Origin: an uncultured bacterium
GTDB taxonomy: Bacteria > Bacillota_I > Bacilli_A > RF39 > UBA660
NCBI GenBank assembly: GCA_905215145.1
Contig: CAJMOW010000040.1
Location: 1 to 9,847 of the forward strand
Reading direction: 5' to 3'
Length of the DNA: 9,847 nucleotides
Made by a program: the position numbers and the translations under genes. Of the stretch, positions 1 through 9,847 are shown one piece after another. The notes beneath the pieces were generated by a model. It was not told the DNA's origin. It did not search any database and was given only the letters and a program-made list of their open reading frames with translations. Each line of letters begins with the position of its first letter. The stretch's first letter is position 1.

Positions 1-70
1 TTAGATTTAATGCTGTTCTTATTTTTATTAATATTTCTTTATCAAAATATTGAGTGTCTTTGTTATTCAT
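1..70 (-). CDS. 5' end of a divergent hypothetical gene (partial)
   Basis: Reading the minus strand from 70 down to the window edge gives an uninterrupted start of a protein, MNNKDTQYFDKEILIKIRT and a few more residues. An ATG at 70-68 is preceded by a GAGGTT ribosome binding site (plus-strand AACCTC, 76-81) five bases upstream, and a promoter-like pair lies further upstream. Only about 23 codons are inside the window, so no function can be given. It would be transcribed away from parA, sharing the intergenic region with it. The start and RBS are seen directly; that it continues as a real gene is inferred. Confidence 0.5.
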   Translation of the reverse strand, partial: MNNKDTQYFDKEILIKIRTALNL

Positions 71-109
71 GTTTCAACCTCGTTTGGGTGTTTTATTAGT
101 GTTATTTTT

Positions 110-138
110 ATTTTATATTAAGGGATATTATTAGTCAA
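110..138 (-). promoter_or_regulatory. Putative promoter of the divergent left-edge gene
   Basis: On the minus strand TTGACT (plus 133-138) and TAAAAT (plus 110-115) are separated by exactly 17 bases, close to the sigma-A consensus. They lie about 40 bases upstream of the minus-strand ATG at 70. In such AT-rich sequence chance matches are common. Confidence 0.4.
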
Positions 139-157
139 ATTTTAGAAAAAATAAGTA

Positions 158-185
158 TTGACAAATAACAATAAAGGTGTATAAT
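158..185 (+). promoter_or_regulatory. Consensus sigma-A promoter of the partition operon
   Basis: TTGACA (158-163) and TATAAT (180-185) both match the consensus perfectly with a 16-base spacer. Transcription would start near 192, giving a leader of about 50 bases before parA, whose AAAGGAG ribosome binding site is at 227-233. ParA or ParB proteins commonly repress their own operon. No clear palindromic operator was visible here, so autoregulation is only an inference. Confidence 0.75.
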
Positions 186-240
186 GATAAGCATAGAGAA
201 CAATCAAATTAATTTTAAATATATGTAAAGGAGAATAATT

Positions 241-996
241 ATGGCAAGGATAATAGCTATATGCAATCAAAAAGGTGGAATAGGCAAAACTACTACAGCA
301 GTATCGTTAGCTACAGGATTAGCTAGATTTGGGAAAAAGACATTGTTAATTGATACGGATGCTCAATGTAATAGTACAGATACTTATCGAGCTGTAACAA
401 AGGATACTGCTACATTATATGATCTTCTTTTAGAAAGTGAAGAATTAGAAGAATGTATTCAACATACACCTTCAGGAGACATAATTGCATCAGATAAACT
501 TTTAACAAGTGCAGAGCAGAAATTCCCTCAAGATCCTTCAAGATATTTTCTTATGAAACAAAAGTGTCAGGCATTAGAAGATATATATGATTATGTAATA
601 ATAGATACTCCACCAGTATTAGGAGTAATCCTATCAAATGTATTAACTTATGCTAATGAATGTATTATCCCTTTCACTTGTGATCGTTATGCAATTCAAG
701 GGGTTAATGAGCTATTACATACTATTAATAGTGTTAAGAGTTATACGAATAAAGATCTTGTTGTAAGTGGTATTGTTATTTGTAAGTACCACAATAATTA
801 TAAAAATCATAGAAATGTAGCAGCAGAATTACCTGTAATCGCTGAAAAATTAAACACTAAGGTGTTTGATACTAAGATAAGAGAATCTGTTGCTTGTACA
901 AATAGCCAGGTACAGAGAATGAGTATATTTGACTTTGATGCAAACAGTACAACAGCTAAAGATTATATGGAATTCTGTAAAGAAATTATGAACTAG
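241..996 (+). CDS. parA: ParA/Soj-type partition ATPase
   Basis: This is a 251-residue Walker-type ParA ATPase, a DNA-binding, ATP-driven protein that positions plasmid copies on the nucleoid together with ParB. The deviant Walker A motif KGGIGKTT is at residues 11-18 with the signature lysine K11. Walker A' (IDTDAQ) is at 37-42 and Walker B (VIIDTPP, D122) at 119-125. The length and the lack of an N-terminal helix-turn-helix place it with the short Soj/type Ib-like proteins rather than P1-type ParA. The start ATG follows AAAGGAG by seven bases and a consensus promoter lies upstream. It is the first gene of an operon, with parB starting 12 bases after its stop. A chromosomal Soj is unlikely given the parM and primase neighbours, but a phage or integrative element is possible. 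Confidence 0.93.
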   Translation: MARIIAICNQKGGIGKTTTAVSLATGLARFGKKTLLIDTDAQCNSTDTYRAVTKDTATLYDLLLESEELEECIQHTPSGDIIASDKLLTSAEQKFPQDPSRYFLMKQKCQALEDIYDYVIIDTPPVLGVILSNVLTYANECIIPFTCDRYAIQGVNELLHTINSVKSYTNKDLVVSGIVICKYHNNYKNHRNVAAELPVIAEKLNTKVFDTKIRESVACTNSQVQRMSIFDFDANSTTAKDYMEFCKEIMN

Positions 997-1008
997 AGGT
1001 GAATGAAA

Positions 1009-1932
1009 ATGGCAAAGAATATAAACGAAAATAGTGGCTATTTTGATGGCTTAGATATGTTTAATGGTGAGTTTACAGCTAAAAATAATGATGTTAATAA
1101 TGAAACTGAATATTTAGATATAAGTCTATTAAAAGAATTTACAGGACACCCTTTCAAAGTAATAGATGATGAATCTATGGATGAACTTAAGGACAGTATA
1201 TCAACTCAGGGTATTATTAATCCAATTATCGTAAGACCAATCGCAGATGGTGGTTACGAGATTCTTGTTGGACATAGACGTGTACACGCATGTACATTGC
1301 TTGGTATAGATAAGGTTCCAGTTAGAATTGTAAATGTAGATGATGATGATGCAGCTTTGTATATGGTAGATAGTAACATACAAAGAACATCAATTCTGCC
1401 ATCAGAAAGAGCATTTGCATATAAAATGAAAATGGAAGCTCTAGAGCATAAGGATAAAAATATAAATACTGGAAAAGTACCTGATAGAGCAGCTGCCTTA
1501 GCAAAAGAGACTAATAGCAGCAAGAAAAGTATATATAGATATATAAAATTAACTAATTTAATACCAGAATTATTAGAATTAGTTGACCAAAATAAAATAA
1601 AAGCGACTGCAAACGGACAGGAAATTGCAGATATGCCGATAACTGCCCAGCAATCAATCTTAGAAGTGTATAAAGAATACAATTTATTACCTAGCACCAA
1701 ACAAGCAGTTGTTATTAAGAACTATGCTGAAAATAATGAAGTTACAAAGGATTATATTTATTCTATTTTAACTGTAGATGATGTTAAAGAAAAGAAAATC
1801 AGCTTTTCTTCTAGGATAAAAAAGTACTTTCCAAAAGGTACTTCAGCACAAGATATGGAGGACTTAATTATTACATTGCTTGAAAATGCTGGCCCTGCCG
1901 TATTAGGAAAAAATGAAAGTGAGGAAGATTAA
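1009..1932 (+). CDS. parB: ParB-family partition protein
   Basis: This is a 307-residue ParB-like centromere-binding protein and the partner of the upstream ParA. The N-terminal ParB/Srx fold is visible from about residue 35. It carries the nucleotide-binding box GHRRVHA (88-94) and a second box NIQR...LPSERAFAY (123-138), both typical of CTP-binding ParB clamps. A helix-turn-helix region follows at roughly 155-190, and a C-terminal segment probably dimerises. Two ATGs compete. The one at 1009 lies seven bases after GAGGTG (996-1001), while the one at 1003 would be only one base away, so 1009 is chosen. The first 30 residues are Asn-rich and may carry the short peptide that stimulates ParA ATPase (inference). 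I saw no palindromic parS of the usual kind in the window, so the binding site is unknown. Confidence 0.9.
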   Translation: MAKNINENSGYFDGLDMFNGEFTAKNNDVNNETEYLDISLLKEFTGHPFKVIDDESMDELKDSISTQGIINPIIVRPIADGGYEILVGHRRVHACTLLGIDKVPVRIVNVDDDDAALYMVDSNIQRTSILPSERAFAYKMKMEALEHKDKNINTGKVPDRAAALAKETNSSKKSIYRYIKLTNLIPELLELVDQNKIKATANGQEIADMPITAQQSILEVYKEYNLLPSTKQAVVIKNYAENNEVTKDYIYSILTVDDVKEKKISFSSRIKKYFPKGTSAQDMEDLIITLLENAGPAVLGKNESEED

Positions 1933-1934
1933 TT

Positions 1935-2870
1935 ATGAAGTATAAAGATTATGAAACATATGTTATTGGTATAGATCATGGCTATAATAATATGAAAACT
2001 TACAATTTTTGTTTTCCAACAAAAATTGAACAGAGAGAAACATTACCAGATATATTAACTGGTATCTTGCAAATAGATGGTAAGATATATAGTGAAAATG
2101 GTACGCAGGTATCATATATAGATACTTTTGATAAAACTACTACAGAAGACTTCTATAATTTAACTTTAATAGCTATTGCTAAAGAATTAAACAAAAAAAA
2201 TGTTTATGGTGGAATTATAAAATTAGCGGTAGGTTTGCCTTTAAGATATTTTGAAAAACAGAAAGATAGTTTTAAGAAGTACTTGATGCGTAAACCAGAA
2301 GTAACATACAAATACGAAGGTAAAACATATCATATTTTTTTAGAAGATTGTAAAGTATTTACCCAGGGATTTGCAGCAATACTTACAAGTCCAAATATAA
2401 ATAAATATATTGAAGATGATTCATCTGCTATTTTATGTGATCTTGGTGGTGGTACAGTAGATTTTATTCCAATCGAAGGTGGTAATATCCAGTTTGCAAG
2501 CTGCAAAGTATCTAATGATGCATGCAATTATCTGTTTACTTTACTTAAGGAAGCTGTTGTAGCTGAAACAGGAAATGCACTTCCTGATAGGGTTGCTCTT
2601 AATTATATTCTTAAAGGTAATAGAAATATGAAACCTAAGAATATATATGAAGAAGTTATGCAAAAAGAGTTAATTAAATATGCTGACAATATTAAAAGTC
2701 TGTTTGCTGAGTTTGGTTATAATATAGATTTAACTCCAGTTGTATATGAAGGTGGAGGAGCAGCTATTATAAAGAATTTCGGAGATTATGATGAAAGTAA
2801 TACAGAATTCTTGACAGATTTATCTGCTAATGTTAAAGGATATGAAATGTTATACAACAGTATATCATAA
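1935..2870 (+). CDS. parM: ParM/StbA-like actin-family ATPase
   Basis: This is a 311-residue actin/Hsp70-fold ATPase of the plasmid ParM/Alp group, whose filaments push plasmid copies apart in type II segregation. The phosphate-1 loop GIDHGYNN is at residues 12-19. An AVGLP strand follows, then the phosphate-2 motif DLGGGTVDF starting at D169, and an adenosine-type motif EGGGAAII near 272-279. The length is in the usual ParM range. The ATG lies two bases after the parB stop with a GAGGAAG ribosome binding site seven bases upstream, so it is very probably cotranscribed with parAB. Two small ParR-like genes follow directly. It is unusual to see an actin-type motor gene inside a parAB operon. 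A non-segregation actin-like role, for example in a phage, cannot be excluded. Confidence 0.85.
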   Translation: MKYKDYETYVIGIDHGYNNMKTYNFCFPTKIEQRETLPDILTGILQIDGKIYSENGTQVSYIDTFDKTTTEDFYNLTLIAIAKELNKKNVYGGIIKLAVGLPLRYFEKQKDSFKKYLMRKPEVTYKYEGKTYHIFLEDCKVFTQGFAAILTSPNINKYIEDDSSAILCDLGGGTVDFIPIEGGNIQFASCKVSNDACNYLFTLLKEAVVAETGNALPDRVALNYILKGNRNMKPKNIYEEVMQKELIKYADNIKSLFAEFGYNIDLTPVVYEGGGAAIIKNFGDYDESNTEFLTDLSANVKGYEMLYNSIS

Positions 2871-2887
2871 CATAGAGGAGTATTTAT

Positions 2888-3364
2888 ATGAGAGTTTCGA
2901 AAGGTAAAAATAAAAAACTTATTAATGCAATAGAAAATGAAACAGAATATACTTATATGTTCAAATTAAATGCTAGTAATCCTATTGAAAAATTATTATT
3001 AAGTAAAGTTAACTCAGCAATGCAGGAAAAGAACTTAACTGTAAGAGATGCATTTTTATATGTATTTTCAAGGTCTGTTGAATATGGAATTAATAATGAT
3101 ACTAATATTATTAATGAAAATGCTGCTAATAGTATTAATAACAATGTTAACAATAATATTATTACAGATAAAAAAGAAAAAAAAGAATCTGATGATGATA
3201 ATGATAACAATAATTCACAATCAATTATTCCACCAGAGCTTCAAAGACAATTTGATAATTTTAAAAATAAGTCTTCTGATGAAAATAAAAATGATAGTAG
3301 TAAGTCAGATAACTCTGCAGCAATAGGAAATTTCCTCAAAAAGAATTTTGGAACAAATTATTAA
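2888..3364 (+). CDS. ParR-like adaptor candidate with Asn-rich tail
   Basis: This is a 158-residue protein directly after parM, the position normally held by parR, whose product binds the centromere and the end of the ParM filament. Residues 1-65 form a compact domain (KLINAIEN...ASNPIEKLLLSKVN...DAFLYVFS) that is clearly homologous to the next gene. A long low-complexity stretch rich in Asn, Asp, Lys and Ser follows (about 68-140), then a short conserved-looking end, AIGNFLKKNFG. In known ParR proteins the C terminus contacts ParM, so the end segment could be that contact (inference). The start follows AGAGGAG by seven bases. I do not recognise a named family from sequence alone; the ParR role rests on position and architecture. 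Confidence 0.6.
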   Translation: MRVSKGKNKKLINAIENETEYTYMFKLNASNPIEKLLLSKVNSAMQEKNLTVRDAFLYVFSRSVEYGINNDTNIINENAANSINNNVNNNIITDKKEKKESDDDNDNNNSQSIIPPELQRQFDNFKNKSSDENKNDSSKSDNSAAIGNFLKKNFGTNY

Positions 3365-3384
3365 AAAAGGATGGTTTGATATAT

Positions 3385-3612
3385 ATGGCTGGAAGAAAAA
3401 TGAACGTATCTGAAATAAGGGACGTTATAGAAAATAAAGAATCATTTGATTATCATACTAAACTTTATTGCAGTAAACCTATTGAAAGAATGTTTTTAGA
3501 AAAAATCTGTGATGTTATGGAAAAACAGAATAAGAATTTTAAGCAAGCAATGATTTCATTGTTTGCTGAAACATTTGTAGATAAGAATATAGATGATTCA
3601 AATGTAGAATGA
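3385..3612 (+). CDS. Short paralog of the preceding ParR-like protein
   Basis: This is a 75-residue protein that aligns along its whole length with the N-terminal domain of the gene just upstream. IENKESFDYHTKL...KPIERMFLEKI...NKNFKQAMISLF here corresponds to IENETEYTYMFKL...NPIEKLLLSKV...NLTVRDAFLYVF there. It lacks the Asn-rich tail and the C-terminal segment. The start is uncertain. ATG at 3385 gives an N terminus matching the paralog but sits 13 bases from AAGGA (3367-3371); TTG at 3376 is four bases from it and would add three residues. It is the last gene of the par operon, 20 bases after the previous stop. It could bind the same DNA or form mixed dimers and modulate its larger paralog (inference). 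Confidence 0.65.
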   Translation: MAGRKMNVSEIRDVIENKESFDYHTKLYCSKPIERMFLEKICDVMEKQNKNFKQAMISLFAETFVDKNIDDSNVE

Positions 3613-3693
3613 TTTGGAGTAAAAATATAAATGTGAGTTATTTAAAGCTTACCTTTTATTTTTTAAAAATAATAGGAGTTTAAAATAAAATAT

Positions 3694-5043
3694 ATGAACA
3701 ATGATAGAATTACTATTTGCAGGAAAATAAAATTAACACCTCTTGGAGATAAAGAAGAAAGAAATAGAGTGTTTCAATACATTAGAAATGGTCAATATGC
3801 ACAGTATCAGGCATGTAATTTATTGATGGGTCAATTAATAAGTGAATATTACAAATATGATCGTGATATAAAGAATGAAGATTTTAAGGCTCGTCAAAAG
3901 GAAATAATGAAAAATTCTAATCCATTATTTCACGAAATTGAGTTTGCGATTGGAAACGACACGCCTTCAGCAGTTACACAAAAAGTAAAAGCAGATTTTA
4001 ATACAGCTCTAAAAAATGGTCTTGCTAAAGGTGAGAGGAGCGTTACTAATTATAAAAGAACTAATCCACTGATTACTAGGGGACGTTCAATTCAGTTTTA
4101 TCATAATTATGGTACATATCAGGAATTCTTAGATAATATAAATAGTACAGATTTGGAAATATATTTAAAATGGGTCAATAAGATTAAATTTAAAGTGATT
4201 TTAGGAAATCCATATAGATCTGCTGAATTAAGAAGTGTAATTAAGAATATTATTGAAGAAAACTATGGGATACAGGGAAGCAGCATATATATAGATGAAA
4301 AAGATATCATTTTAAACTTATCATTATCTATTCCAAAAAAAATTCAAAAACTAGATGAAAATACGGTTGTTGGTGTTAACTTAGGGCTGATTGTTCCAGC
4401 AATGTGTGCATTGAATAACAATGAATATAAGCGTTTAGCTATTGGCAATACTGATGATTTTGTTAGAATGCGGATTAAATTGCAGGAACAAAGAAAACGT
4501 ATACAAAAAGGATTGAGAAGTGCTGCAGGTGGTCATGGAAGAAATAAAAAACTTAAAGGCTTATCTAAATTAAAGAAAAGAGAACAAAAATTTGTTGAGA
4601 CTTATTGTCATATGATAAGTCGCAGAATTGTTGATTTTGCATTGATTAATAATGCAAAATACATAAATCTTGAATATCTTCAGGGATATGATACAAATGA
4701 ATTTGTATTGCGTAATTGGAGCTATTACAAAATACAACAGTATTGTAAATACAAAGCTTCTATATATGGGATAGTGGTGAGATTTGTTAATCCATGTTAT
4801 AATGCTCAGGTTTGTAGTTTTTGTGGACACTGGAGCGAAACACAGAGAATTTCCAGAGAAGTATTCAAGTGTGAGAATCCTAATTGCATAAGTCACAAGT
4901 TATATAAAGATGGTTATTTAAATGCGGATTTTAATAATGCCAGGAACGTAGCTCTTTCTTCTTTATTTGTAAATGATGGAAATATTACAGATGAAAAATT
5001 CAAGGAAGCAAGAGAATATTATGATATTGACATTTCAAGATAA
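3694..5043 (+). CDS. cas12f: Cas12f-like RNA-guided protein, predicted nuclease-dead
   Basis: This is a 449-residue protein of the Cas12f (type V-F/U3)/TnpB family, near the length of AsCas12f1 (422 residues, recalled). An N-terminal REC/WED part ends with YKRTNPL. The RuvC part carries GGHGRNKK (279-286), RuvC-II INLEYLQG (E327), FVLRNWSYYKIQQ, a zinc finger C374-x2-C377...C393-x4-C398, and RuvC-III NADFNNARN (D412), all closely resembling Cas12f1. The RuvC-I motif reads GVNLGL with codon AAC (4378-4380), so N229 replaces the catalytic Asp of GIDLG. It should still bind guide RNA and DNA but not cut (inference). AGGAG is 15 bases before the ATG, a poor spacing suggesting low translation. No clear promoter is visible in the 81-base gap; readthrough from par is possible. 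No cas1, cas2, tnpA or sigma factor is adjacent. A dead TnpB repressor (TldR) is the alternative. Confidence 0.87.
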   Translation: MNNDRITICRKIKLTPLGDKEERNRVFQYIRNGQYAQYQACNLLMGQLISEYYKYDRDIKNEDFKARQKEIMKNSNPLFHEIEFAIGNDTPSAVTQKVKADFNTALKNGLAKGERSVTNYKRTNPLITRGRSIQFYHNYGTYQEFLDNINSTDLEIYLKWVNKIKFKVILGNPYRSAELRSVIKNIIEENYGIQGSSIYIDEKDIILNLSLSIPKKIQKLDENTVVGVNLGLIVPAMCALNNNEYKRLAIGNTDDFVRMRIKLQEQRKRIQKGLRSAAGGHGRNKKLKGLSKLKKREQKFVETYCHMISRRIVDFALINNAKYINLEYLQGYDTNEFVLRNWSYYKIQQYCKYKASIYGIVVRFVNPCYNAQVCSFCGHWSETQRISREVFKCENPNCISHKLYKDGYLNADFNNARNVALSSLFVNDGNITDEKFKEAREYYDIDISR

Positions 5044-5055
5044 GAGTATTATACT
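5027..5055 (+). promoter_or_regulatory. Near-consensus promoter for the downstream guide-like RNA
   Basis: TTGACA (5027-5032), 17 bases, then TATACT (5050-5055): 11 of 12 consensus positions with ideal spacing. It overlaps the last codons and stop of the Cas12f-like gene, so the RNA has its own start near 5062, independent of the protein gene. The -10 sits in a small palindrome, AGAGTA-TTA-TACTCT (5044-5058). This could be a regulator site, or a hairpin in the protein's mRNA. Confidence 0.75.
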
Positions 5056-5061
5056 CTATAA

Positions 5062-5272
5062 AATATATACGGTTGATTTTGCTGCCGAAAGGTGAGGGCA
5101 ATGCCACTCACCAAAATCTATGTATTTGAGGTTTTAGAACTATTTAATTTTGCATAGGTACAAAACAATAGATAACTTTTATATTTACATATGTAAGCTT
5201 TTTAACTGTTCTTAAAATTAAAAATAAAACATTAGAAAAACATCTGTGTCATCATGACATGGATGTTTTTCT
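5062..5272 (+). ncRNA. Putative single-guide RNA of the Cas12f-like protein
   Basis: No ORF lies between the Cas12f stop and the next gene, yet the stretch has its own promoter (5027-5055) and a terminator (5231-5275), defining an RNA of about 210 nt. Its 5' part folds: GATTTT (5075-5080) pairs with AAAATC (5113-5118), enclosing a hairpin GGTGAG/CTCACC (5091-5096/5107-5112) topped by GGC/GCC. TGCC (5083-5086) can pair with loop GGCA (5097-5100) as a pseudoknot. CTATGTA (5118-5124) can pair with TGCATAG inside the CRISPR-like repeat (5151-5157), resembling a tracr anti-repeat/repeat helix in one molecule. The guide would begin at 5167 with AATAGATAACTT. Layout (scaffold, repeat end, 3' guide) matches Cas12f/omega RNA polarity. 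Guide function and target are inference; no convincing target was found in the window. Confidence 0.65.
5131..5166 (+). repeat. Solitary 36-nt CRISPR-like repeat
   Basis: This is a single 36-base unit beginning GTTTTAGAAC and ending GTACAAAAC, with self-complementary ends GTTTT/AAAAC and an inner CTAT/ATAG pair. Compared without gaps to the type II-A repeat of Streptococcus pyogenes as I recall it, 26 of 36 positions agree, including both ends. No second copy exists in the window, so this is not an array. Its orientation puts the AAAAC end next to the presumed guide, as in type V crRNAs. Confidence 0.65.
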
Positions 5273-5275
5273 AAT
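5231..5275 (+). terminator. Long terminator hairpin after the guide-like RNA
   Basis: This 45-base hairpin has 21 bp (19 Watson-Crick, two G-U) and a TCA loop. The outer arms ATTAGAAAAACATC and GATGTTTTTCTAAT are perfectly complementary. The T-run at 5266-5270 follows the GC-containing inner stem, and the matching A-run makes it potentially bidirectional. It closes the ncRNA unit and separates it from the primase gene. Confidence 0.8.
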
Positions 5276-5286
5276 AACTGGCAATA

Positions 5287-5315
5287 ATGCAATAAGAAAG
5301 TAGATATTGTTGCAT
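5287..5315. promoter_or_regulatory. Dyad and short direct repeat upstream of the primase gene
   Basis: ATGCAA (5287-5292) and TTGCAT (5310-5315) form a separated dyad, and GCAATAA occurs twice in tandem (5281-5287, 5289-5295). It lies between the terminator and the primase start, where a promoter is expected, but no good -35/-10 pair was found. An operator or replication-related site is possible; the arms are only 6 bp, so chance is a real alternative. Confidence 0.25.
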
Positions 5316-5383
5316 ATATAGTAACAAAGTTCGTGTTCAATATTTTAATATATAACATATATTAAAGTAAAGGAGACGATAAT

Positions 5384-6406
5384 TTGAAGTTAAGTTATAC
5401 AAGTGAGGATCTTAATAGAGCTAAAGAAACTAATTTAGTTGAATTAGCTAGGAGGTTGGGATATACTCCTGTAAAATGTGGAAGGTGTTATTCCCTTAAA
5501 GAAATGGATTCGATGAGAATTTATAATGAAAAAACATGGTATCGCTGGAGTGGTTCAGGACAGAAAACGGGTGGAACCCAAATTGATTTTATTATTGAAT
5601 ATGGTAATGCAAATAATGTACCGGAAGCAGTACACATGTTGTTGGATTTTCAGGGGATAGCACCAGTTAATGTTGTAAATAAAGAACCTAAAAAGGAGGA
5701 ACCACAAGAATTTATTCTTCCCCAAAAAGCTCATAGTTATAGAATTATGTATGCATATTTAATGAAGCAAAGAGGACTTTCATATAATGTTATAGACTAT
5801 TTTGTTAATAAGCAAAAAATATTATATGAATCTGATGAACATCATAATTTAGTTTTTTGTGGTAGGGATAAAGATGGCAATATTAAATTTGCAACTAAAC
5901 GAGGAACTGGTGATATATATGGTAGAAGATTCAGAGGTGATGTTCCTGGCAGTAATAAAGATATAGGAATTTCTATAGTTAATGAAGAATCAGATGAATT
6001 ATATGTTTTTGAAGCAAGTATAGATTGCATGAGCTTTATGGATCTTACAGATGATTATACAAGTAATAAACTTATTATGAATTGCATTGAAGAAAATTCA
6101 TTAGTTCATTTTCTTAATGAACATCCTAACATTAAAAAAATAAATTTTTGTATGGATAATGATATTCATGCAAAAGAAAAGCTATATGGTAAGACAGCTA
6201 TAACAGATCTTAGTGGTAATGTTATTAAGGAAAGAGTTATTGGATATATAGAAAAATATAAAAATAAAGGTTACATTGTTAATGACAAATTGGCTCCTGA
6301 ATATCCTCATTGCAAAGACTATAATGATGTACTTAAGTATCTTAAGGAGGCACAACCAGAATTAGTAGCTGCATTAGGTGTGAAGAGAAAAGCTATGGCT
6401 AGATAG
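5384..6406 (+). CDS. DUF3991/TOPRIM primase-like protein
   Basis: This 340-residue protein resembles the DUF3991-TOPRIM proteins carried by plasmids and integrative elements, thought to act in DNA replication or transfer. The N-terminal part (about 15-90) has the layout of a CHC2-type primase zinc domain: LARRLGY, CGRCYSL, WYRWSGSGQKTGGTQIDFI. However, it keeps only part of the expected Cys/His set, as usual in this group. The TOPRIM part shows the catalytic glutamate in YVFEASIDCMSFMDL (E210) and the acidic motif FCMDND (D258, D260), the metal-binding residues for nucleotidyl transfer. The start is TTG, eight bases after AAGGAG (5370-5375); no other start fits as well. It is separated from the Cas12f/ncRNA unit by a strong terminator, so it needs its own promoter, which I could not identify. 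Confidence 0.8.
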   Translation: MKLSYTSEDLNRAKETNLVELARRLGYTPVKCGRCYSLKEMDSMRIYNEKTWYRWSGSGQKTGGTQIDFIIEYGNANNVPEAVHMLLDFQGIAPVNVVNKEPKKEEPQEFILPQKAHSYRIMYAYLMKQRGLSYNVIDYFVNKQKILYESDEHHNLVFCGRDKDGNIKFATKRGTGDIYGRRFRGDVPGSNKDIGISIVNEESDELYVFEASIDCMSFMDLTDDYTSNKLIMNCIEENSLVHFLNEHPNIKKINFCMDNDIHAKEKLYGKTAITDLSGNVIKERVIGYIEKYKNKGYIVNDKLAPEYPHCKDYNDVLKYLKEAQPELVAALGVKRKAMAR

Positions 6407-6512
6407 CTAAAGTAGGAGTGTTTGTGAATAAGCTCTAGTAAGAAGAAGTCACAATAAAAATATGAAATTGCAGAGTAATCGACAGTTTCTTGTGAAAATT
6501 AAGGAGGTAAAA

Positions 6513-6836
6513 ATGAACAGAATAACTATTAATGGTAAAACAATCACATGTTCAAGAACTAATGTTGTCATCAACAATGGAAAGGTTATTGTAGATGGTA
6601 AAACAATTCAAGAGTGTAATAGTGGTGATATTAAAGTCACTATCGAAGGAGATGTAAACAAAATTGATTGTGATGGATCAGTAGAAGTTCACGGCAATTC
6701 AGGAAGTATTGATTGCGGTGGTAGTTGTGAAGTCAGTGGAGATGTCAAAGGAGATATAGACGCAGGTGGTTCTGTAACTTGTGGTAACGTATCAGGTGAT
6801 ATAGATGCTGGTGGAAGTGTGAGATGTAGAAGATAA
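6513..6836 (+). CDS. Small Gly/Cys-rich beta-helix-like protein
   Basis: This is a 107-residue protein starting at an ATG five bases after a perfect AAGGAGG (6501-6507). An in-frame ATG at 6462 has no such site and is rejected. After the N-terminal TINGKTI segment, about 60 residues form imperfect short repeats alternating G-[SD]-[IV]-x-[CAV]-x-G: GDVNKIDCDGS, GNSGSIDCGGS, GDVKGDIDAGGS and GNVSGDIDAGGS. This pattern suits a small right-handed beta-helix or solenoid, as in bactofilin-like or adhesin-type domains. Eight or so cysteines recur at regular positions. There is no signal peptide or membrane segment, so a cytoplasmic location is likely. The role is unknown; I recognise no named family with confidence. 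Confidence 0.7.
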   Translation: MNRITINGKTITCSRTNVVINNGKVIVDGKTIQECNSGDIKVTIEGDVNKIDCDGSVEVHGNSGSIDCGGSCEVSGDVKGDIDAGGSVTCGNVSGDIDAGGSVRCRR

Positions 6837-6851
6837 GGAGAATAATATAAC

Positions 6852-7001
6852 ATGAAGATTTTAGCTTTAACAATTTTATTTATTTTGATGTTTTTCAGAA
6901 TTAAAGGTACGCCAATATTTATATCGGGAACATTTTCGTCAAGTTCATCAATAATTGCCCCAATTAACTCATCAGGTGTAATCCATGAGCAATATCAATG
7001 A
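6852..7001 (+). CDS. Possible 49-residue membrane peptide
   Basis: An ATG at 6852, 11 bases after AAGGAG (6835-6840), opens a 49-codon frame. The first 15 residues (MKILALTILFILMFF) are strongly hydrophobic and could be a signal or membrane anchor. The rest is Ser/Ile-rich and ends near HEQYQ. The antisense of its second half reads like coding sequence, so the frame may be accidental over a decayed gene. Function unknown. Confidence 0.3.
   Translation: MKILALTILFILMFFRIKGTPIFISGTFSSSSSIIAPINSSGVIHEQYQ
6906..6985 (-). pseudogene. Possible decayed minus-strand coding fragment
   Basis: Read on the minus strand, this stretch gives WITPDELIGAIIDELDEN followed by VPDINIGVP. This is a natural-looking, acidic, amphipathic protein piece. 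There is no start codon or ribosome binding site, and a stop codon lies a few codons upstream (about 6994). If real, it is a remnant whose 5' part has been lost. Open frames of this length also occur by chance, so confidence is low. Confidence 0.25.
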
Positions 7002-7089
7002 TGTAATTGCTAATGATGGCTATGATGTATCCGCTTTTGAGTTGTTGGAAATTCCACATCCGAAAGTATTCAAGACAGGTAAGATTTAA
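6985..7089 (+). CDS. Short ORF, possibly a C-terminal gene remnant
   Basis: A 34-codon frame begins at an ATG seven bases after AGGTG (6973-6977) and ends just before the terminator. It encodes MSNINDVIANDGYDVSAFEL and then LEIPHPKVFKTGKI. The composition looks like a genuine soluble protein end rather than noise. It overlaps the previous short frame by 17 bases. It could be a tiny gene or the tail of a larger gene lost by deletion. No function can be assigned. Confidence 0.3.
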   Translation: MSNINDVIANDGYDVSAFELLEIPHPKVFKTGKI

Positions 7090-7092
7090 GAA

Positions 7093-7145
7093 AAAAGACA
7101 GCCACTTTTCTATTAATTGGAATGTGACTGTCTTTTAATTTTTAC
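7093..7145 (+). terminator. Rho-independent terminator
   Basis: AAAAGACAG (7093-7101) pairs with CTGTCTTTT (7128-7136). A one-base mismatch and CAC/GTG (7103-7105/7124-7126) extend the stem inward, and TTTTAATTTTT follows. It sits four bases after the stop of the preceding short frame and ends the primase/beta-helix transcription unit. The A-run on the left arm could make it bidirectional. Confidence 0.75.
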
Positions 7146-7146
7146 T

Positions 7147-7160
7147 GTTAAGTGCTTAAC
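7147..7160. promoter_or_regulatory. Perfect inverted repeat GTTAAG-TG-CTTAAC
   Basis: This 14-base perfect dyad is followed by AACTTAA, so TTAAGT/ACTTAA half-sites recur (7148-7153 and 7159-7164). It lies about 70 bases upstream of the -35 of the next promoter. The half-site resembles the one in the dyad at 7256-7271. Together they could be operators for the small regulator at 7288 (inference). Confidence 0.35.
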
Positions 7161-7215
7161 TTAAATGACATTGATATATGATGTGGAAATTTTTTTGTTT
7201 TGTTAATTGAAAATA

Positions 7216-7244
7216 TTGACAATTTACAAAATGAGCGGCATTAT
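7216..7244 (+). promoter_or_regulatory. Probable promoter of the right-hand operon
   Basis: TTGACA (7216-7221) is a perfect -35. Seventeen bases later comes CATTAT (7239-7244), a 4 of 6 match to -10; TTATAT (7241-7246, spacing 19) is the alternative. Transcription would start around 7251, right at the dyad 7256-7271, so a bound regulator would block it. Confidence 0.5.
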
Positions 7245-7255
7245 ATACTCATAGG

Positions 7256-7271
7256 TAAGTACACATACTTA
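7256..7271. promoter_or_regulatory. Operator-like inverted repeat TAAGTA-CACA-TACTTA
   Basis: This perfect 6-bp dyad with a four-base centre lies between the presumed transcription start and the ribosome binding site (AAAGGA, 7274-7279) of the regulator gene at 7288. Placement and symmetry fit autoregulation by that ribbon-helix-helix protein, which typically binds short inverted or direct repeats. Binding is inferred. Confidence 0.45.
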
Positions 7272-7287
7272 AGAAAGGATTGATATA

Positions 7288-7482
7288 GTGGAGAAAAAAA
7301 CAAAACAACAGAGGTATGACGAGAAACATGGGTTAATTTCCAAAAGCTATAAATTACCTAAAACTGTAACTGATAAATTTAAAATTGCTTGTGCAAAAGT
7401 TAATATTAGTCAGGGTAAGAAGTTGGAAGAGCTAATGTGTAGTTTTATAAAGGAGGTAGATGAATATGATCAGTGGAATTAA
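7288..7482 (+). CDS. Ribbon-helix-helix (CopG/Arc-like) regulator
   Basis: This 64-residue basic protein begins with GTG eight bases after AAAGGA. After a Lys/Gln-rich N terminus, residues about 19-52 follow the ribbon-helix-helix plan. A short strand SKSYKLP is followed by helix one VTDKFKIACAKVN, a turn ISQGK, and helix two KLEELMCSFIKEV. Such proteins dimerise and bind operators, often as repressors of their own small operon on plasmids. Two inverted repeats sharing the TTAAGT-type half-site lie upstream, one directly at the start of transcription. Its 3' end overlaps the next gene by 17 bases, pointing to translational coupling. An antitoxin role is possible, but the neighbours look like membrane proteins, not toxins. 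Confidence 0.65.
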   Translation: MEKKTKQQRYDEKHGLISKSYKLPKTVTDKFKIACAKVNISQGKKLEELMCSFIKEVDEYDQWN

Positions 7483-7894
7483 AAGAATATTTAGTTTAGC
7501 ATATGCTGTAATTGCAACTGTAATTTTCATAGTTTCCAATATGTTAAAAGGAACTTGTGTAGTAACATTTATTTTATATTTATTATATGTTGCAAAAGCT
7601 ATGTATAATTTATGGATTAATGCGGATTCTTCATTTAGTGTAAATCTTATTCTATGGGGGATTGCTTATTCATTTATTGGGGTTGTATTATATCAAATTG
7701 CTGCATTTATGTATTGTGTAATATTTGATTATCCGGTTGAAGGTCTAAAAAGTGCAAGCTGGGTAAATAGTAAGTTATATGGTATGGGTTGTACTATATC
7801 AGATAGTTTTCCTGGGAGAAAAGATAAAATTGCTAGAACTCAGGGATTTAGAAATTACAATGAGATGAAAAATTATTTGGATAATAACTTATAG
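7466..7894 (+). CDS. Small integral membrane protein, hypothetical
   Basis: This 142-residue protein has three or four predicted membrane segments by eye. They are FSLAYAVIATVIFIVSNML (about 9-27), TCVVTFILYLLYVAKAMY (31-48) and a long hydrophobic stretch LILWGIAYSFIGVVLYQI plus AAFMYCVIF (about 61-88). A soluble basic C-terminal region of about 50 residues follows, ending FRNYNEMKNYLDNNL. ATG 7466 is nine bases after AAAGGAGG (7449-7456); the ATG two codons earlier (7460) is only three bases away and less likely. The gene starts inside the end of the regulator gene. No known family recognised. Small membrane proteins of this kind are common in the transfer or maintenance regions of Gram-positive mobile elements, but nothing here proves a transfer role. 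Confidence 0.65.
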   Translation: MISGIKRIFSLAYAVIATVIFIVSNMLKGTCVVTFILYLLYVAKAMYNLWINADSSFSVNLILWGIAYSFIGVVLYQIAAFMYCVIFDYPVEGLKSASWVNSKLYGMGCTISDSFPGRKDKIARTQGFRNYNEMKNYLDNNL

Positions 7895-7933
7895 ATAAAA
7901 TGAAATTAGATTAAATAAGGAAGTGAGGAGAAA

Positions 7934-8119
7934 ATGAAAAATTATATAAAACCATTCTTTTTAGCTTTGTTCAATAATGTTTTTTTGCTTATGATTGACA
8001 CACCGGAAGTAAATAATCATTTATGGAGTTTGATTGTATTTACATTGTTGTGGTTTATAACTTTTTTAATGCTTGTTGTCGGTATAAGATATACCAAGTT
8101 GCCAGAAGGAGATGATTAA
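7934..8119 (+). CDS. 61-residue two-pass membrane protein, hypothetical
   Basis: This 61-residue protein has two hydrophobic segments, FFLALFNNVFLLMI (about 8-21) and LWSLIVFTLLWFITFLMLVV (30-49), separated by a polar TPEVNNH loop, with a charged end KLPEGDD. A hairpin in the membrane with both ends on the same side is likely. GAGGAG (7925-7930) lies only three bases before the ATG, a tight but usable spacing. The stop codon abuts the ATG of the next gene, whose ribosome binding site lies inside this gene, so the two are probably co-translated. Unknown function; two-pass shape recalls holin- or immunity-type small proteins, but that is not evidence. Confidence 0.55.
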   Translation: MKNYIKPFFLALFNNVFLLMIDTPEVNNHLWSLIVFTLLWFITFLMLVVGIRYTKLPEGDD

Positions 8120-9847
8120 ATGTCAAAACTTAATTTAAAAGAGATGATTGCCTTATGGGTGAAAATAACAGGAGTAGATCCAACAGAGGATAATAAGTCT
8201 TATACAATTTACCTTGATGGACGATTATCTGATTATGATATTAAAAAGATGAATGACAGAATCAAGGAATCTTTGACTTATGACGATACAGGTTTATTTG
8301 CAGAATGTTATCTGAAAGTATATTTTAAGAAGTTTCTTATAAACAAGAACATGTCTTTACTTGAATTGATAAATAATAAGGATGCAGATGGGCTTATAAG
8401 TGATATTAAAACCTTGTATTATGCACTTGAAGAAAATGATGCAGAGAAGCAGGTACTTGATGAAGCAAAGAAGGCTATGGAGTTTTATAATCTGCCATTT
8501 GAACTTGATTTATTCTCAGTAATAGAACTCAGAACGTCAGCTCTTAACTGTATAAATAAAAAGTTAAGAACAATGCAGTTTTCAGTCGGTACAGCAGGCG
8601 ATGATTTCAAGATGACAAGAAATATCATTATGTATAAGGATCTTAATGCCCTTATTACATGTGCTGCAAAAGGTAAGATTAACGGTGTTCAGCTTGCCTA
8701 CATAAGAGATGAAAAACGTATTACAGACAGCTATTTTGCTTTTGTAATTAAGAATGGAGATAATCTTTATCTTTTAACTGATATGCCTGAATATTCACAT
8801 CCGTTGCAAAGCAATATGAGTAGATGTCCTGGCAGGAATATGAGCAACCGGATTGAATCTAATTGGTTCCCATATGATACTGTTGCAGATATAAATGTAA
8901 GTGACTTATGGGGAAGCGGCAGATATGGTACATCAGAAAAAAGCACTAAATTATCGACTGTATTAAATGAAGAATCATTATATACAGTTATAGGCACGAT
9001 TGATTCATTAAGCCGGGATGAAGCTTTTTGGTTTATCATGATGCTTTCATTAATTAAGGATAAGTTTTATGACAAGCCTGCACCAAAGCTTCCTATGTCT
9101 TATGTGGGAGAAATGATAAATACTCCACTTATAGATAAATCTGAAAATGCATTAATTATACAGGATGCATTACCATCGCTTGACTTAGAAATTATTGATT
9201 TTGAAAATACTAAGGACATGAAGTATCAGACAGAACTTTTGAAGTTCGATGATAATAATAGTTCATTAATAAAAAGATATAAAGACCAGGTGAATGTAGA
9301 CCTGCTTAATGTAATAAGAAATACAGATAAGTCAATAATGATTGAAGATAAATACGCTATAAAGGATGTATTTGGAAAGGTACAAGGTTGTAAATACCTA
9401 TCCTTAGACTTAAATCAGGCAGGTACTAAGGAAGAACTAGAATATAAGCAGAAATGGTTGTTAAGATACAACTACGCAACAGAAATCAACAGATTAATAC
9501 ATGAAGATTACGAAAAGAATGCTTCATGTATTATAGAAGAAATCGGGAATCTTGTTTCTGTACGAATAAAGGATTTAATAATAATGCAGCTTCAAGGACA
9601 GCTTGTAGGACATAAGCTTATACATAGTAAAGAACCTTTGAATTTCGGACAGGAATATTCAGATGAAAATTATGACCTGGGTAAATTTATGACAACTAAA
9701 TGGATGTGGCATAAATATGATTATGGTAGGACAACATACAGATTTGGATATGACACATATAGCAATCTGGCTGATATTAAATGTGCTTTAACAGGAAAGC
9801 AAGGTTCATTAATATTACATATTGAAATACAAAATGCATATGATCTT
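8120..9847 (+). CDS. Large unrecognised protein, 3' end outside window
   Basis: An uninterrupted frame of 576 codons runs from ATG 8120 to the window edge. AAGGAG (8106-8111) lies eight bases before the start, and the gene begins directly after the upstream stop. It starts MSKLNLKEMIALWVKITGVD. I see no signal peptide, membrane segment or Walker, nuclease or helix-turn-helix motif. The protein is mostly soluble alpha/beta with acidic helices early (KEENDAEKQ-like) and aromatic-rich strands near the end (WMWHKYDYGRTTYRFGY). Synonymous codons are less AT-biased than in the par genes (more CTT, CAG, GGC, AAG). Its origin may therefore differ, or it may simply be better expressed. It is probably cotranscribed with the regulator and membrane genes. 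Structural or transfer-associated roles are possible, but none is supported by a motif. Confidence 0.75.
   Translation, partial: MSKLNLKEMIALWVKITGVDPTEDNKSYTIYLDGRLSDYDIKKMNDRIKESLTYDDTGLFAECYLKVYFKKFLINKNMSLLELINNKDADGLISDIKTLYYALEENDAEKQVLDEAKKAMEFYNLPFELDLFSVIELRTSALNCINKKLRTMQFSVGTAGDDFKMTRNIIMYKDLNALITCAAKGKINGVQLAYIRDEKRITDSYFAFVIKNGDNLYLLTDMPEYSHPLQSNMSRCPGRNMSNRIESNWFPYDTVADINVSDLWGSGRYGTSEKSTKLSTVLNEESLYTVIGTIDSLSRDEAFWFIMMLSLIKDKFYDKPAPKLPMSYVGEMINTPLIDKSENALIIQDALPSLDLEIIDFENTKDMKYQTELLKFDDNNSSLIKRYKDQVNVDLLNVIRNTDKSIMIEDKYAIKDVFGKVQGCKYLSLDLNQAGTKEELEYKQKWLLRYNYATEINRLIHEDYEKNASCIIEEIGNLVSVRIKDLIIMQLQGQLVGHKLIHSKEPLNFGQEYSDENYDLGKFMTTKWMWHKYDYGRTTYRFGYDTYSNLADIKCALTGKQGSLILHIEIQNAYDL

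Follow-up and report, generated by a model that had tools for sequence, protein, structure and literature searches.

The DNA analysed here, a stretch of 9,847 nucleotides (the window), encodes a Cas12f homolog that lacks its first catalytic aspartate, which raises the question of what a protein of this kind does if it no longer cuts. Partition genes for ParA, ParB and an actin-like protein (ParM/ALP; positions 241-2870, plus strand) and a gene for a DUF3991/Toprim protein (5384-6406, plus strand) belong to a plasmid backbone, and therefore the window is considered plasmid-like. The cas12f gene (3694-5043, plus strand) is intact over 449 codons, and its RuvC-I motif (GGTGTTAACTTAGGG, 4372-4386) reads GVNLG, with the codon AAC (4378-4380) giving N229 where the RuvC-I Asp is expected. 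This reading of the initial annotation was confirmed from the sequence, and the residues it had described as retained are all present: E327 (4672-4674), D412 (4927-4929), the zinc-finger cysteines C374, C377, C393 and C398, and the GGHGRNKK segment. The assignment of N229 to the RuvC-I Asp column of AsCas12f (which we take to be D225 of AsCas12f1) agrees with profile alignments, in which this column holds the Asp of GVDLG or GIDLG in CnCas12f1, RhCas12f, Al3Cas12f and AsCas12f.

Fold and sequence profile place the protein among the type V-F Cas12f proteins. It carries the four-cysteine TNB zinc finger (Pfam PF07282), and its nearest profiles and structures are those of Cas12f rather than TnpB. 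The D-E-D triad of a Cas12f nuclease is incomplete, the three positions being N229, E327 and D412, and the chemistry of the RuvC site suggests that cleavage is lost.

Homologs were collected at E ≤ 1e-3 (1056 proteins), and residues were counted in the best 120 of these 1056. At the RuvC-I column, Asp was found in 109, Asn in seven, Ala in two and Lys in one; one sequence was a non-covering fragment. The close homologs are not uniformly Asp-bearing, and because the Asn is common to a clade of six proteins, a sequencing error or a recent mutation was ruled out. A careful tree was computed from 35 of the best 120 homologs, the window protein and the protein of viral contig L004 (37 rows, three catalytic columns removed). 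In it, P0026, P0021, P0022, P0002, P0001 and the window protein form this clade with a support of 93/91, which becomes 99/96 when P0026 is left out; P0013 carries its Asn outside the clade, as a separate case. In a faster tree built from 116 rows, with five incomplete rows excluded and the catalytic columns kept, five Asn proteins group together (SH-aLRT 99) with P0026 outside. The third acidic residue is also gone in two members of the clade (D412E in P0021 and D412N in P0026). This is the picture expected of an old lineage that is maintained without cutting.

According to the initial annotation, no partner is adjacent to the gene. This holds for a sigma factor, which was found in none of the 10 window proteins (Pfam scan, 9.8 kb covered), but it overlooked a guide-RNA locus at 5027-5275 on the plus strand. 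The locus begins with a promoter-like sequence, TTGACA-17-TATACT (5027-5055, 11 of 12 consensus positions), which overlaps the 3' end of cas12f and likely drives the guide RNA. It is the best of 11 promoter-like sites in 3300-5500; since shuffled sequences give a mean of 15.6 such sites, that is, no enrichment, the match alone proves little. A predicted tracr-like scaffold follows (5070-5130); its two stems occupy 5070-5087 and 5091-5112, and it includes an anti-repeat. The stems recur in six related scaffolds (the window, two each in L004 and L005, and one in L012), among which both sides have changed at five of the 12 predicted pairs, and only two of 200 shuffles of scaffold plus repeat fold as well or better (z -3.0). 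One clear copy of a 36-nt CRISPR-type repeat (5131-5166) is followed by a guide of 30 nt (5167-5196). A possible second repeat, decayed and weak (5197-5230), has a shuffle p-value of 0.0135, with 63 of 9709 window positions scoring equally. The locus closes with a strong hairpin (5231-5275) with 22-nt arms of 91% complementarity, a possible end of the guide transcript; a terminator scan of the region around the guide did not list this hairpin and gave no terminator-like site. A search of the window against Rfam gave no match up to E 1. Judged from its parts, the locus resembles a gene for a guide RNA with a single, built-in guide. Together with the old, shared Asn, this intact-looking locus lends support to the earlier proposal that the protein is kept for guided binding without cutting.

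Several relatives of the cassette were found in viral contigs. A query termed A1 retrieved L004 and L005; a scaffold pattern led to the L005 contig again and an alignment of the Asn clade to the L004 contig again. A single-protein scan of the viral contigs for related cassettes gave none, and the exact repeat pattern had no match there. L004 (IMGVR_UViG_3300032038_000015, 131,991 bases) encodes an Asp-bearing Cas12f that shares 70% identity with the window protein. A short array lies upstream of it, and additional copies resembling the scaffold are located at 7484 and 9413 (noted region 7484-8000). Among plasmid and phage records, 229 and 3, respectively, matched the window protein, with identities of 32.5% / 30.5% at the best listed place. 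In L001 (1157-2515), from a Lachnospiraceae MAG, a cas12f homolog that retains the Asp is interrupted by an in-frame TAG just past the first zinc-finger Cys.

The guide was searched with up to three mismatches in 734 different genomes, counted by handle (likely Lachnospiraceae/Lachnospirales samples) and drawn from three sets: the family of G001 (the genome of L001), represented by 397 genomes, the genus of the hit by 22, and the order of the hit by 392. A single match was obtained, in genome G013 (C5:8734-8763), where 28 of 30 bases agree; the mismatches lie at positions 20 and 27, and bases 1-19 are exact. The remaining 733 genomes gave no match at this threshold, nor did a control with the reversed pattern (0 matches). 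Assuming independent bases, 1.5e-4 (GC 0.42) or 4e-3 (GC 0.30) chance matches with up to two mismatches are expected in 397 genomes and roughly double that in 734. When the whole window was compared with the 22 genomes by blastn, its one match in G013 covered exactly 5167-5196 (E 3e-4). The similarity thus ends at both borders of the guide, as expected of a spacer-protospacer pair.

The protospacer lies 52 nt upstream of the ATG of cas6 (8815 in locus L016), the first gene of a complete type I-B operon in the order cas6-8b-7-5-3-4-1-2. The operon continues with cas8b (9622-11391), cas7 (11405-12283), cas5 (12267-12992), cas3 (13074-15572), cas4 (15607-16116), cas1 (16146-17135) and cas2 (17274-17552). 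The genes were named with NCBIfam and PADLOC, cas8b with PADLOC only. The best-scoring promoter-like site of the cas6 upstream region, TAGATA-17-TATAAT (8736-8764), nearly coincides with the protospacer, which also contains a TTGACA (8751-8756); five promoter-like sites were found in this region compared with a shuffle mean of 2.8. In L018 (genome G395), whose Cas6 is 65% identical, a stretch ACCT...TTGACA that includes the ACCT flank of the protospacer aligns over 34 columns at 88% identity, one gap included; it lies 109 nt before the cas6 start. Because this stretch recurs before cas6 of L018, the guide is considered to sit on a conserved part of the cas promoter region. The guide itself matches the L018 site in only 19 of 30 ungapped positions. 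Further TTGACA-type stretches in L023, L025, L026 and L027 lie before or in unrelated genes, of which one example, in L023, is cysteine-synthase-like as judged by eye; these stretches resemble common promoters or mere AT-rich sequence.

The guide locus points to a likely mode of action, in which the promoter of a type I-B cas operon of the host would be blocked. The plasmid-like locus of dead Cas12f and one guide is probably an RNA-guided repressor that would silence the type I-B CRISPR-Cas immunity of its host. It also appears rather likely that it acts as a programmable anti-CRISPR, in which a plasmid has converted Cas12f into a dead, single-guide silencer of the promoter of the whole operon. 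Protein and guide RNA would both be made from the plasmid, the latter from the near-consensus promoter ahead of the guide. The complex would then recognize a C-rich PAM and form an R-loop at the cas6 promoter, where the match lies. The RuvC D-E-D chemistry suggests that N229 prevents metal-dependent cutting; with cutting blocked, a chromosome-directed guide would therefore be tolerated. RNA polymerase would be obstructed and expression of cas6-cas8b-cas7-cas5-cas3-cas4-cas1-cas2 lowered, and consequently interference as well as adaptation would decrease. As predicted from the target of the guide, the CRISPR-Cas immunity of the host would be lowered and the plasmid would escape it.

The 5' flank of the protospacer is CCT. 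CnCas12f1 is reportedly another Cas12f with a C-rich PAM. RhCas12f, the second-best solved chain for the window protein (PDB 9nzp), is reported to recognize 5'-CCD (PMC10090079), with which the CCT flank is compatible. By analogy with RhCas12f, a C-rich PAM is probable for the window protein, represented here by CCT.

The main competing explanation is a dead type V-F mini-CRISPR directed at rival plasmids or phages, which it would silence, the match at the cas promoter being an AT-rich coincidence. Type V-F systems are enriched on plasmids and the spacers of plasmid CRISPR systems are mostly directed against plasmids, as stated in a review (PMC11656645), and CRISPR-like arrays are indeed present near the gene in the Asp-bearing relatives L002-L005 (judged by eye), repeats similar to that of the window forming arrays in L004 and other relatives. 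The case for silencing of the host operon has points against it, too: it is built on one guide and one target genome, and the match is AT-rich with two mismatches. The poor agreement of the guide with the L018 site, the absence of matches within three mismatches from the other 733 genomes, and the region around the guide, which shows neither an excess of promoter-like sites nor a listed terminator, count against it as well. However, chance matches are expected far below one, and a coincidence would have to account for a match whose borders are those of the guide, whose flank is of the CCD type and which is followed by a cas operon. A viral target was rejected; in the viral contigs, the first 20 bases of the guide matched exactly at one place, which lies in an unrelated phage contig and is flanked by TTAA. 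We regard the mini-CRISPR explanation as unlikely, and the two following as less likely still.

Residual cutting or nicking by the Asn protein, or its decay, which would leave the locus without a settled function, is quite improbable. NED triads have been recorded in some Cas12m clades, with the mechanism described as open (PMC10442227), and catalytic residues have been lost independently in other homologs: Lys and Met replace the first Asp and the Glu in P0109, whereas P0099 and P0100 have Ala at the first Asp and lack part of the zinc finger. Against decay, the members of the Asn clade have diverged, yet they are full-length and conserved elsewhere, and the comparison of the window gene with the Asp-bearing L004 gene (69% identical) yields a pN of 0.21 versus a pS of 0.72, the latter near saturation. 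Autoregulation, in which the guide would act on promoters of the plasmid itself, is highly improbable and was rejected. Upstream of cas12f, for example, the guide agrees with 3623-3642 (minus strand, TTTA flank) in 16 of 20 bases, but 16 or more matches were reached in five of 30 shuffled windows and four of guide positions 1-11 are mismatched.

For silencing of the host operon, G013 would serve as a representative of the host. G419, of the same genus, contains a contig of 147,648 bases with relatives of the actin-like (46%) and the DUF3991 protein (53%); because this contig carries both relatives, related plasmid backbones occur in the genus of the target. In a search for plasmid DNA resembling window positions 1-7900, four records were obtained, with a query coverage of 1-2% each. 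In G013 itself, no Cas12f was detected at E ≤ 1e-10, which counts against the silencer reading. The CRISPR array of G013 is incomplete and runs off both contigs, with the first repeat at the contig end and seven more on another contig; its seven spacers (34-37 nt) matched the window over 20-23 bases at best and gave no target, a further point against that reading.

Compared with the type V-F Cas12f nucleases RhCas12f, CnCas12f1 and AsCas12f, the window system has the same fold, the zinc-finger TNB and a similar arrangement of predicted tracr-like scaffold, one clear repeat and guide. It differs in the Asn in place of the RuvC-I Asp and in having a single guide matching a chromosomal cas promoter region, whereas the nucleases use an array against invaders. 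Dead Cas12f proteins (dCas12f) linked with a sigma factor form another group, of which structures are available in the PDB (9n9c and 9n9m). In contrast to these, no sigma gene was found among the 10 window proteins (Pfam), and the window protein is predicted to be a repressor, not an activator.

TldR proteins, as described in PMC13418256, are likewise nuclease-dead, encoded on mobile elements and equipped with one guide directed at a host promoter. The window protein resembles them in its Asn clade and full-length frame, with guide binding as a prediction, and in a guide matching a promoter-like region at 28 of 30 bases, provided that G013 represents the host. It differs in being derived from Cas12f with a CRISPR-type repeat instead of TnpB, in a target that is an immune operon instead of flagellin (PMC13418256), and in the window showing no linked replacement gene. 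Cas12m (type V-M) and type IV-A systems are also plasmid-borne and described as silencing transcription by binding, but they belong to other families and their spacers are mostly directed against other mobile elements (PMC11656645, PMC10442227). The window protein is predicted to work like TldR, Cas12m and type IV-A, by binding without cutting, yet it is not filed with them because it is a Cas12f by descent; the complete triad of the nuclease is absent from it as well.

Mobile elements also turn CRISPR parts on host CRISPR-Cas in the case of Racr RNA anti-CRISPRs and of phage Cas9 with an inactivated RuvC domain. These are described as acting by mimicry or sequestration (PMC10651486, PMC11656645), whereas the window system would repress cas transcription by means of a guide. 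The repeat of a Racr copies that of the host; the window repeat (36 nt) and the I-B repeat of G013 (30 nt), the presumed host, differ by reading after GTTTTA.

Searches of the open literature listed no paper whose title or opening of the abstract concerns a dead Cas12f or other RNA-guided repressor acting on a host cas promoter, the primary TldR and TnpB/Cas12-diversity papers being outside this scope. The nearest idea is a suggestion for phages, whose guides might act as silencers of host CRISPR systems or as promoter blocks (PMC7162821), and a 2024 review calls the apparent non-recruitment of Cas proteins as CRISPR inhibitors an enigma (PMC11656645). If the silencer reading is true, a dead Cas12f whose one guide is directed at a host cas promoter would be a rare Cas protein serving as a CRISPR inhibitor; one CRISPR effector would turn off another CRISPR system, and regulation of the TldR type would be joined with anti-CRISPR biology. 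The loss of the nuclease would be explained, since a guide directed at the chromosome is safe only with a non-cutting effector. As the Asn clade is old, RNA-guided counter-defence may have persisted as a lineage, with guides that can be reset to the defence promoters of new hosts. More cases could be sought by comparing the guides of plasmid-encoded dead Cas12 and TnpB proteins with promoters of defence operons.

Two further genes of the window lie beyond the DUF3991 gene. The first (6462-6836) encodes a small protein with repeated GGS/DID motifs (GDIDAGGSV), which is likely beta-solenoid-like as judged by eye. The second (8120-9847) encodes a long protein that is cut by the end of the window and has no Pfam family; it is 21-30% identical to hypothetical proteins on widely differing plasmids of Pseudomonas, Vibrio, Enterobacter and Brevibacillus.
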